A stretch of 64,000 nucleotides of DNA from the NCBI GenBank assembly GCA_015478665.1, contig JADMII010000002.1:62001-126000 (forward strand), given 5' to 3'. The position numbers and the translations under genes are program-made. Below are positions 10,190-47,199 of the stretch, one piece after another; position 1 is the stretch's first letter, and each line of letters begins with the position of its first letter. The DNA comes from Dehalococcoidia bacterium (GTDB lineage: Bacteria > Chloroflexota > Dehalococcoidia > DSTF01 > JACRBR01). The notes under the pieces were generated by a model. The model saw nothing but the letters and a program-made list of their open reading frames with translations. It did no database searches and was not told the DNA's origin.

Positions 10190-11173
10190 TCACGGACAGG
10201 GCGACGGCTGGGCGAAGGCCCAGTCGAGCAGGCGCTCCGAGTCCGCGTATCTGTCCTGGCTCTTCATCAGCGAAGCGATGATGCTGCGCCCGTCGCGCGT
10301 CGCCGAGGCGACGATGGTCTGCGCGGACTGCTCGGTGTAGCCGATCTTCACGCCATCGGCGCCGGCGTATTCGGAGAGGAAGCGATTGCCGTTCCAGACG
10401 GCGGGACCGTCCCAGTTGGGCTGGTACTGCTCGGTGCCGACGATCTGGCGGAGCGTGGGGTTCTGCATGACATAACGTGAGAGCATCGCGATGTCGTAGG
10501 CGCTCGAATACAGGTTCGGGTCGTTGAGGCCGTGGGGGTTGGTGAAGTGTGTGTCTTCGAGCGCCAGCGACTGCGCCTTCGCGTTCATCATGTCGACGAA
10601 CTTTGCCTGCGTGCCGCCGATGCCCTCGGCGATGGCGATGGCGGCGTCGTTGCCGGACGGCAGCAGGAGGCCGTACAGCAGGTCGAGGAGCGAGAGCTGC
10701 ATACCGGGCTTCAGCCCCATGATCGTCGAGCCGGTGTCGGTGTAGAGCTGCGCGCCGTCGACGTTGGTGGTGATCATCGTGCTCGCATCGGCCTGGTCGA
10801 GCGCGACCGCGGCGGTCATCAGCTTCGTCAGGCTTGCCGGCGGCAGGCGGGCGTGCTCGTCGCGGCCGTAGATGAGGCGCCCGCACGACGTTTCGACGAC
10901 GGCGATCGATCGTGCGCTGACGAACGGCAGCCCGGCCGGAGGCGTTGCTTCAGGCGTGGCGGTGGGACGAGCGACCAGCGACGCGGCGGCTTCCGTCGGA
11001 CGCGCTTCTGCCGCCGCGACGGACGAGGTGCAGCCGCGGCAGCCCGTGGCGTCGAGCTGGCGGCTGTACAGCGAACCGGAGAACCAGCCGGCCGCCACTG
11101 CCGACGCGGCCAGCGCCAGTCCGATGATCACCGCACCCACCCCGCCACGGGTTGCACGGCCGAAGTCTTCCAT
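10190..11173 (-). CDS. D-alanyl-D-alanine carboxypeptidase (S11 family)
   Basis: PPASLTKLMTA (SxxK), LLPSGNDAA (SxN), DGVKIGYTEQSAQTIV (KTG-box position), N-terminal TM. Confidence 0.88.
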   Translation of the reverse strand: MEDFGRATRGGVGAVIIGLALAASAVAAGWFSGSLYSRQLDATGCRGCTSSVAAAEARPTEAAASLVARPTATPEATPPAGLPFVSARSIAVVETSCGRLIYGRDEHARLPPASLTKLMTAAVALDQADASTMITTNVDGAQLYTDTGSTIMGLKPGMQLSLLDLLYGLLLPSGNDAAIAIAEGIGGTQAKFVDMMNAKAQSLALEDTHFTNPHGLNDPNLYSSAYDIAMLSRYVMQNPTLRQIVGTEQYQPNWDGPAVWNGNRFLSEYAGADGVKIGYTEQSAQTIVASATRDGRSIIASLMKSQDRYADSERLLDWAFAQPSPCP

Positions 11174-11275
11174 TCGAACGCGAGTATAGCCGTCCCGATC
11201 CGTCTTCGCCACCATCTCGATCAGGCTGATGATCAGATCACGCGACGAACGGCGGACGTGGCACGTGACAGCCGA

Positions 11276-11303
11276 TTGACAGCCTCGGATGCGTGCCTAT
11301 ACT
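11276..11303 (+). promoter_or_regulatory. sigma70-type promoter for panD operon
   Basis: TTGACA (11276-11281), 16-bp spacer, TATACT (11298-11303). Confidence 0.75.
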
Positions 11304-11422
11304 GGGAGGCGCCGTCGATCCGCCTGGCGGACGGCGAGCGTGATGGAGACGTGGGCGAAGAACACCGGCTGCTTGGATCCGAGGGACCGAGACGGCAGAG
11401 AGCGCGGCGCACGCGCATCGAT

Positions 11423-11455
11423 ATGCCTCTCCGGTCCGCCGGAGCAGGCATTTTT
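11423..11455 (+). terminator. intrinsic terminator inside the panD 5' leader (attenuator candidate)
   Basis: ATGCCTCTCCGG-tccg-CCGGAGcAGGCAT followed by TTTTT, 54 nt before panD ATG. Confidence 0.75.
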
Positions 11456-11508
11456 CGTGAGACGGAGGCGCGGCCGGCCGCGCGAGTTGCCGGGAGGCAG
11501 GGGACACG

Positions 11509-11901
11509 ATGCGGACGATTCTGAAGAGCAAGATCCATCGTGCGACGGTCACACAGGCGGACCTGCATTACGAAGGCAGCATCACCGTCGACCCGGTGCT
11601 GCTCGAGGCGGCGGACATCCTGCCGTTCGAGCAGGTGCACGTGCTCGACGTGGACAACGGCGCCCGCCTGCAGACGTATGCCATCGAAGGCGCGCGGGGC
11701 AGCGGACAGGTCTGCATCAACGGCGCCGCCGCACGCCTCGTCAGCCCCGGCGACGTCGTCATCATCCTCAGCTACGAGACGGCGACCGACGTCGAGGCGC
11801 GCCGGGCGCGGCCGTCGCTGGTGTACGTCGATGGCAGCAATCAGATCGTCCGCACGGGAAGCCACATCGAGGCGGCGGCGCCGGAGCCGGCGCAAGTCTG
11901 A
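11509..11901 (+). CDS. panD: aspartate 1-decarboxylase
   Basis: [46 protein letters not shown]. Confidence 0.96.
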
Positions 11902-11936
11902 CCGAGGGGCCATGTGACACGGCGCGGGAGGCCACC

Positions 11937-12809
11937 ATGACGCGCATCAGCACTACTGACATCCGCCAGATGAAGCAGCGCGGCGAGAAGATCGTCATGA
12001 TGACGGCGTACGACTGCCCGACGGCGCGCCTCGTCGAGCAGGGCGGCGCGGACGTCGTGCTCGTCGGCGACACGCTCGGCATGGTGGTGCTCGGCTACGA
12101 CTCGACGCTGCCGGTGACGATGGACGACATGGTGCATCACACGAAGGCCGCCGTCCGCGGCACGGAGCGCGCGCTCGTCGTCGGCGACATGCCGTTCATG
12201 AGCTATCAGACGGGCTGGCAGGACGCGATGCGCAACGCCGCGCGACTGATGCAGGAGGCAGGCTGCGGCGCCGTCAAGCTCGAAGGCGGCACACGCTCGG
12301 CGGAGACCGTCCAGAGGCTGGTCGAGGCGGGCATCCCCGTCATGGGGCACATCGGCTTGACGCCGCAGTCGGTGAACCAGTTCGGCGGCTTCAAGGTGCA
12401 GGGCAAGACGCCTGCCGCCGCCGTGCAGCTGATGCACGATGCCCAGGCGCTCGAACAGGCTGGCGCGTTCGCCATCGTCCTCGAAACGATCCCCGCGCCT
12501 CTCGCGGAGCTCCTCACAGGGCGGCTCAGCGTGCCGACGATCGGCATCGGCGCCGGCGCCGGCTGCGACGGCCAGGTGCAGGTCTTCCACGACATGCTCG
12601 GCATGTTCGACGCCTTCATGCCGAAGCACGCCAAGCGCTTCGGCGAGATCGGCGAGGCCATACGTGAGGCCGTCCGCGCCTACGCGCGCGACGTGCGCGC
12701 CGGGGACTTCCCGACGGCGAAGGAGAGCTTCCGCATGGATCCGGCGGCGCTCGCCGAGCTGCGCCCCGACGGCGCGAAGCTCGGCCGCCGTCACGCCCTC
12801 GGGATGTGA
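11937..12809 (+). CDS. panB: 3-methyl-2-oxobutanoate hydroxymethyltransferase
   Basis: MMTAYDCPTARLVEQGGADVVLVGDTLGMVVLGYDSTLPVTMDDM, IGIGAGAGCDGQVQVFHDMLGM. Confidence 0.97.
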   Translation: MTRISTTDIRQMKQRGEKIVMMTAYDCPTARLVEQGGADVVLVGDTLGMVVLGYDSTLPVTMDDMVHHTKAAVRGTERALVVGDMPFMSYQTGWQDAMRNAARLMQEAGCGAVKLEGGTRSAETVQRLVEAGIPVMGHIGLTPQSVNQFGGFKVQGKTPAAAVQLMHDAQALEQAGAFAIVLETIPAPLAELLTGRLSVPTIGIGAGAGCDGQVQVFHDMLGMFDAFMPKHAKRFGEIGEAIREAVRAYARDVRAGDFPTAKESFRMDPAALAELRPDGAKLGRRHALGM

Positions 12810-12901: not shown

Positions 12902-13738
12902 GTGGACGTCTTCCGGACAATCGCAGACCTCCGGACGTGGCGTCGTGCGCAGACGGGCGATGTCGGCCTCGTGCCGACGATGGGCTATCTGCACGAGGGC
13001 CACCGCTCGCTCGTGCGCGCGGCCCACACGTCGGACGACCGGACGGTCGTGTCCATCTTCGTGAATCCCACGCAGTTCGCGCCGGGCGAGGACTTGGCGC
13101 GCTACCCGCGTGACGAGGCGCGCGACCTCGCGCTGCTCGACGCCGAGCGCGTCGACGCCGTCTTTGCGCCGAATGCCGGCGAGATCTACCCCGACGGCTA
13201 CTGCACCTACGTCGACGTCGGGCGCCTCACCGCACGGCTCGAAGGCGCGTCGCGGCCGGCGCACTTTCGCGGCGTCACGACGGTCGTGCTCAAGCTGCTG
13301 CACATCGTCCAGCCGCGTCGCGTCTACTTCGGGCAGAAGGACGCGCAGCAGCTGGCTGTCGTCCGCACGCTGGTGCGTGACCTCGACGTCGACGTCGAGG
13401 TCGTCGGCCGGCCGATCGTCCGCGAGGCCGACGGCCTGGCGCTGAGCAGCCGTAACGTCTACCTCTGCGGCGACGACCGTGCGGCGGCGCTCGTGCTCAG
13501 CCGCTCCCTCGCGCTTGCGGCGGAACTCTTCGACGCCGGAGAGCGCGACGCCGGCGTGCTACGCGCCCGCATGCGAAGCCTGATCGCCGCGGAACCGCGC
13601 GCCGAGATCGACTACATCAGTGTCGCCGACGCCGAGACGCTCGACGAACTGGAGGTGGTCGCAGCGCCGGCGCTCGTCTCGCTCGCGGTGCGCATCGGCG
13701 GCACGCGGCTCATCGATAACACCGTCCTGACGCCGTAG
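12902..13738 (+). CDS. panC: pantothenate synthetase
   Basis: VPTMGYLHEGHRSLVRAA, VNPTQFAPGEDLARYPR, YFGQKDAQQLAVV, ALSSRNVYL; GTG start. Confidence 0.97.
   Translation: MDVFRTIADLRTWRRAQTGDVGLVPTMGYLHEGHRSLVRAAHTSDDRTVVSIFVNPTQFAPGEDLARYPRDEARDLALLDAERVDAVFAPNAGEIYPDGYCTYVDVGRLTARLEGASRPAHFRGVTTVVLKLLHIVQPRRVYFGQKDAQQLAVVRTLVRDLDVDVEVVGRPIVREADGLALSSRNVYLCGDDRAAALVLSRSLALAAELFDAGERDAGVLRARMRSLIAAEPRAEIDYISVADAETLDELEVVAAPALVSLAVRIGGTRLIDNTVLTP

Positions 13739-47124: not shown

Positions 47125-47199
<75 letters not shown>

Follow-up and report, generated by a model that had tools for sequence, protein, structure and literature searches.

Results

Genes and promoter of the pan locus

The window, by which we mean the whole 64-kb stretch of DNA analysed here, carries the genes for three steps of pantothenate supply, and their order, panD-panB-panC, was confirmed with Pfam and NCBIfam signatures (Table 1). 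A first-pass annotation of this DNA had proposed that gene order and had also placed a near-consensus promoter about 205 nt before the panD ATG, and the promoter was borne out as well. It matches the sigma-70 consensus at 11 of 12 positions, and 205 nt separate the end of its -10 box from the ATG at 11509. No other site of at least 11/12 occurs on either strand of the window, and first-order Markov resamples of the window contained 0.0 such sites on average. The divergent gene beside this promoter (10190-11215, minus strand) resembles that of a D-alanyl-D-alanine carboxypeptidase, with an SLTKLM-type motif.

Table 1. Features of the panD-panB-panC locus, in window positions.
Feature	Position	Strand	Details	Basis
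Sigma-70 promoter, TTGACA-16-TATACT	11276..11303	+	11/12 consensus; -35 TTGACA 11276-11281, 16-nt spacer, -10 TATACT 11298-11303	sequence, relatives' leaders
Pan hairpin 1	11310..11340	+	arms 11310-11320 / 11330-11340; bulged A 11318, 11337	RF01749 alignment, covariation
Inter-hairpin linker, unconserved	11341..11368	+		RF01749 alignment, relatives' leaders
Pan hairpin 2	11369..11395	+	arms 11369-11380 / 11384-11395; bulged A 11377, 11392	RF01749, fold, covariation
Proposed antiterminator, 5' strand	11384..11397	+	GGACCGAGA + GGCA; overlaps 3' strand of hairpin 2	leader MFE, comparisons
Intrinsic terminator	11423..11455	+	12-bp one-bulge hairpin, then TTTT(T); stem 11423-11434 / 11439-11451, one bulged C, loop 11435-11438, -19.1 kcal/mol; T run 11451-11455	sequence, fold, relatives
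Proposed antiterminator, 3' strand	11424..11437	+	TGCC + TCT-C-CGGTCC; overlaps terminator 5' arm and loop	leader MFE, swaps
Likely panD Shine-Dalgarno	11499..11503	+	AGGGG	sequence
panD, aspartate 1-decarboxylase	11509..11901	+		TIGR00223, PF02261
panB, ketopantoate hydroxymethyltransferase	11937..12809	+		TIGR00222, PF02548
panC, pantoate-beta-alanine ligase	12902..13738	+	GTG start as listed	TIGR00018, PF02569

Leaders of related genomes are similarly equipped. A promoter matching at least 9 of 12 positions lies within 70 nt upstream in 109 of 122 related leaders, compared with 9% of shuffled sequences, and in most cases 4-9 nt separate the end of the -10 box from the first of two hairpins; the corresponding distance in the window is 6 nt. 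Because the -10 box is so close to this hairpin in the window and in its relatives, the transcript is expected to start at about 11309-11311, almost at the hairpin itself.

The leader carries a divergent pan RNA

A scan of 361 bases against all 4227 Rfam families matched the pan model (RF01749) to positions 11310-11399, with model positions 1-92 complete, a score of 31.9 bits and an E-value of 0.0008. In the alignment all pairs are standard and each of the four bulged A residues is present. The two hairpins repeat one geometry, in which each strand contributes one bulged A residue and five pairs separate the two, and the RNA lies upstream of panD-panB-panC, a setting characteristic of the pan motif. 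The pan RNA described by Weinberg et al. (2010, PMC2864571) has the same tandem hairpins with two bulged A residues each, the same conserved sequence around the bulges of hairpin 2, and the same placement directly upstream of panD-panB-panC; the window copy differs in being GC-rich and in scoring below the cut-off. That cut-off, a gathering threshold of 36.2 bits, is a database threshold for inclusion and not a biological feature, and a copy scoring below the curated value would therefore be missed by standard automatic annotation.

On its sequence, the window leader is a divergent copy of this known RNA. Membership in the pan motif had been raised as a possibility in the first-pass annotation, and the model now matches the leader from end to end. 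A pairing of GCCGTCG with CGGC that had been noted there is real and corresponds to pan hairpin 1, but its stem is imperfect, interrupted by the bulged A residues at 11318 and 11337. The match is the single RF01749 match in the 2.67-Mb genome. The only Rfam match above cut-off in the window is a tRNA gene at 47125-47196 on the plus strand.

Conservation and covariation among relatives

We compared the leader with those of relatives. Rfam gave a pan match in 12 of 18 genomes of the window's order, and when direct reading of the leaders was combined with Rfam, a pan leader was found in all 15 panD-bearing genomes of the order. In G005, G009 and G011 the Rfam score is too low, yet both hairpins and the terminator are readable; in G016 the leader precedes a DUF2520 gene, and panD follows about 1 kb downstream. 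One member of the order, G013, passes the 36.2 cut-off with 37.7. Across the class, 168 of 393 sampled genomes have a pan match, 76 above the cut-off. This class is most likely Dehalococcoidia, given 19-28 reductive dehalogenase matches in each of the genomes G065, G111, G030 and G083.

Over 42 distinct sequences, 96.9% of the cells of the pan pairing scheme were paired, and 10 pairs had double changes. Pairing as high as the real value was reached by none of 500 shuffles, and sliding the partner strand reduced it to 24-49%. Most of the covariation sits in hairpin 1 (8 of 10 pairs), whose pair counts lean to the model, as its parse demanded both A residues and took the largest possible number of pairs; 9 of its 10 pairs were formed in 85% of real leaders compared with 3.8% of shuffles. 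Hairpin 2 is nearly invariant across the 42 sequences. The comparison thus supports both hairpins.

Some leaders have a different layout. In family f5 (L122, L075) hairpin 1 has apparently been lost, and hairpin 2 stands directly before the panB start with no terminator, an arrangement that suggests a translational version of the leader. In family f7 (L059, L077, L103) no terminator was found after the pan motif; in L059 a TTG within hairpin 2 may serve as start codon for a DUF2520-like protein.

An intrinsic terminator follows the pan motif

The terminator predicted in the first-pass annotation, a 12-bp, one-bulge hairpin followed directly by TTTTT, was recovered as a hairpin of that length with a single bulge; its T run is shorter than was supposed, as the first T is paired and only TTTT is free. 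The bulge hides the hairpin from a simple terminator scan, and it was located by a fold-based one. It begins after a spacer of 23 nt from the pan motif. By composition, 1.5 hairpins of this kind are expected per 64 kb on both strands, which makes it unremarkable; its weight comes from conservation in relatives and not from composition. Among 122 related leaders, 115 have a hairpin that folds with -10 kcal/mol or better and leads into T; its distance from the pan motif is 3-40 nt, with a median of 16. Few T residues are left unpaired both here and in the sister genome G005, where TTT is followed by CC, and termination may therefore be leaky.

Together with the covariation of both hairpins, the terminator kept in these 115 leaders supports the earlier proposal of an attenuator-like leader upstream of panD. 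Homologous leaders devoid of the hairpin, the T-tract or the covariation would have spoken against the proposal, and the leaders compared here did not refute it. Sequence and comparison give a conserved order of promoter, two pan hairpins, terminator and gene.

Hairpin 2 is complementary to the terminator arm

The terminator's 5' arm, which typically reads CCTTCTCGG(T), has its complement in (G)ACCGAGACGG, the 3' strand of hairpin 2. Folded with no constraint, the leader of the window adopts the antiterminator as its minimum free energy (MFE) fold, in which 11384-11392 and 11394-11397 pair with 11424-11437. With the 3' arm of the terminator not yet made, this fold is 8.0 kcal/mol better than one in which hairpin 2 is forced (-64.5 vs -56.5 kcal/mol), and over the whole leader it is 4.1 kcal/mol better (-75.9 vs -71.8 kcal/mol).

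The same complementarity is enriched in relatives. We searched the terminator arm and loop for a complement of CCGAGA, allowing G-U pairs. Of 115 pan terminators, 62 had one, compared with 3 of 150 control terminators drawn from 400 kb of genomes belonging to that class. The mean duplex between the hairpin 2 strand and the terminator was -15.4 kcal/mol for pan terminators, compared with -10.0 kcal/mol for the controls. When leaders were folded up to the terminator loop, the MFE structure contained 5.7 antiterminator pairs with the leader's own terminator and 2.3 with control terminators grafted in its place; at least six such pairs form in about half of the class leaders, not in all.

Within the order, leaders paired better on average with their own terminators than with swapped ones from relatives (-20.6 vs -18.9, permutation p 0.003), a comparison from which kinship is only partly removed. 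The variable outer part of the strand also matches its own terminator better in the order (p 0.006), as illustrated by GGCA/TGCC in the window, GGCGCGCA/GTGCGCC in G013, GCAGA/TCTGC in G012 and GCAAG/CTTGC in G009. With one sequence per family (42 families), matched pairs were again better (z about -2.7), kinship being only partly removed here too. The entropies of the terminator's 5' and 3' arms, compared as a test of extra constraint on the 5' arm, were only weakly asymmetric, and the argument does not draw on them.

The hairpin 2 and antiterminator states are close in energy across the class, as a switch would require. Without ligand, the computed optimum is native hairpin 2 in 59 of 114 class leaders; a default-on state is therefore a prediction and not universal in silico. 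We infer that in pan leaders formation of the antiterminator would exclude the terminator. The comparison with about 150 relatives suggests a stop/go switch between pan hairpin and terminator, and we consider it likely that the divergent pan leader controls panDBC by transcription attenuation, with hairpin 2 competing with the terminator.

Other uses of the leader can be envisaged. Translational control, in which the ribosome binding site of panD would be masked by hairpin 2 or an alternative pairing and the hairpin preceding T4 would be incidental, could draw on the terminator 5' arm GCCTCTCCGG, which might also pair close to the start codon, with CCGGGAGGC at 11490-11498, and on the terminator-less f5 leader of L122, where hairpin 2 abuts the panB start. 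We regard it as distinctly unlikely, given a T-tract hairpin kept in 115 of 122 leaders and a terminator 5' arm specifically matched to hairpin 2 across relatives. Least probable of all is that the leader either acts through a leader peptide or is unregulated, its terminator being leaky. Open frames do cross the leader in this GC-rich DNA; however, the frame at 11289-12809 crosses panD in a reading frame other than the gene's own, reaches into panB and lacks any run of regulatory codons, and the linkers between the hairpins vary in length, with no fixed frame. Leader-peptide attenuation was rejected, as no frame is conserved. An unregulated leader would not be expected to have conserved bulges, covariation and arm complementarity.

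Pan leaders of Bacillales

Pan scored above the cut-off in 37 of 40 scanned Bacillales-type panBCD (PanD) loci. In these leaders the complementarity is displaced onward by a few bases compared with the Dehalococcoidia class: ACAGAGGGAU, which comprises the last (3') bases of hairpin 2 together with its tail, lies opposite AUCCUUCUGU of the terminator arm. The duplex was -14.7 kcal/mol, compared with -9.8 kcal/mol for shuffled sequences. Own and swapped terminators did not differ in Bacillales (p 0.23), where the swap and covariation test is uninformative because both strands are near-invariant. Pairing through the tail of hairpin 2 could explain why the Rfam consensus ends in a conserved GAaGG tail that is left single-stranded. 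Judged by these sequences, Bacillales pan leaders appear to share the switch design in another register.

Genes behind pan leaders

We assigned the first gene behind each of the 122 leaders by sequence signatures. DUF2520 Rossmann proteins were the most frequent (65), followed by S58 peptidases (at least 30), PanD (13) and PanB (5). Many operons of the class run from the pan leader through an S58 peptidase (PF03576, DmpA/BapA-type) and DUF2520 to panD, panB and panC, an order seen in L239, L241, L245, L246 and others of the L032-L135 series. From this gene context, the S58 enzyme may release beta-alanine, and the DUF2520 protein may be a ketopantoate reductase. No DUF2520 gene was found in the whole genome to which the window belongs (G000), where the ketopantoate reductase is therefore presumably another protein. 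In a single case (G021:C245:15187-15271; L127/L244) a type III pantothenate kinase gene (PF03309) stands behind a pan leader and terminator. All of the genes behind pan leaders fit a role in pantothenate/CoA supply. The window's own genome has a type III pantothenate kinase gene at G000:C14:1352-1963.

Discussion

In the mechanism that we propose, a free hairpin 2 would release its 3' strand (11384-11397) to pair with 11424-11437, the terminator would be blocked, and transcription would enter panD; read-through would thus be the default. An effector holding hairpin 2, and probably hairpin 1 too, in the closed form would allow the terminator to form, and a product of about 147 nt would be released. 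Less certainly, such an effector would report a sufficiency of pantothenate or CoA, and the outcome would be feedback repression. We infer both this direction, in which presence of the effector means off, and the type of effector.

This design is familiar from the purine- and SAM-type attenuation riboswitches of Bacillota, in which the 3' strand of a sensor helix likewise doubles as part of an antiterminator, and the antiterminator keeps an intrinsic terminator from forming; as in SAM-type leaders, the pan leader would be off when the sensor fold is stabilised. The pan RNA differs from these riboswitches in that two bulged hairpins are seen and no complex aptamer core. The PyrR leader of Bacillus pyr operons also combines a small bulged hairpin with a choice between terminator and antiterminator ahead of a biosynthetic operon, and its hairpin is a protein site; the pan RNA differs from it in sequence and hairpin geometry and in having two hairpins in tandem. 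Neither a terminator nor an antiterminator is mentioned in the passage on pan of the 2010 description (PMC2864571). No pan ligand or mechanism (panB antiterminator) was found in the open literature searched, where only that description and two Bacillus transcriptomes listing the motif turned up.

For the effector, a protein-gated attenuator is a serious contender, to which we give slightly less than an even chance: a dimeric RNA-binding protein would grip the tandem hairpins via their bulged A residues and would itself sense pantothenate or CoA. In their passage on pan, the discoverers took its simple tandem structure to suggest binding by a dimeric protein, not a metabolite (PMC2864571), and the repetition of one bulged-A geometry in hairpins 1 and 2 points the same way. 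However, the pan operons read include no gene that is an evident candidate for such a regulatory protein, and as Dehalococcoidia and Bacillota both carry the motif, the same protein would be needed in both.

We find it rather less likely that the leader is a metabolite riboswitch whose two pan hairpins bind pantothenate, CoA, a CoA intermediate or beta-alanine. Small-molecule aptamers are usually more complex than single-bulge hairpins without a junction or pseudoknot. No junction or pseudoknot was detected here, so the pan hairpins would make an unusually simple aptamer, and no ligand is reported in the literature searched. Yet the regulated genes do supply pantothenate (panD, panB, panC, DUF2520, S58 peptidase and once a type III pantothenate kinase), and the expression platform is one that riboswitches commonly use. 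CoA is, moreover, a cofactor that as of a 2022 review was surprisingly without a riboswitch, and that review expects some of the missing classes among orphan candidates (PMC9971707). The narrower idea that pan RNA is the missing CoA-type riboswitch, with CoA or one of its precursors as the directly bound ligand, strikes us as improbable; the window copy and its relatives would then be the off-switch form, with the ligand closing hairpin 2 and so freeing the terminator.

Attenuation through competition between hairpin 2 and the terminator does not depend on a choice between these effectors. The pan RNA family itself has been known since 2010; new here are a divergent member and a proposed expression platform. 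With this platform, the pan family would gain a concrete means of gene control common to Dehalococcoidia and Bacillales. The proposal names exact base pairs and a predicted direction, off when the effector is present, and is directly testable. Termination in a purified transcription reaction would provide a simple read-out for ligand or protein screens.
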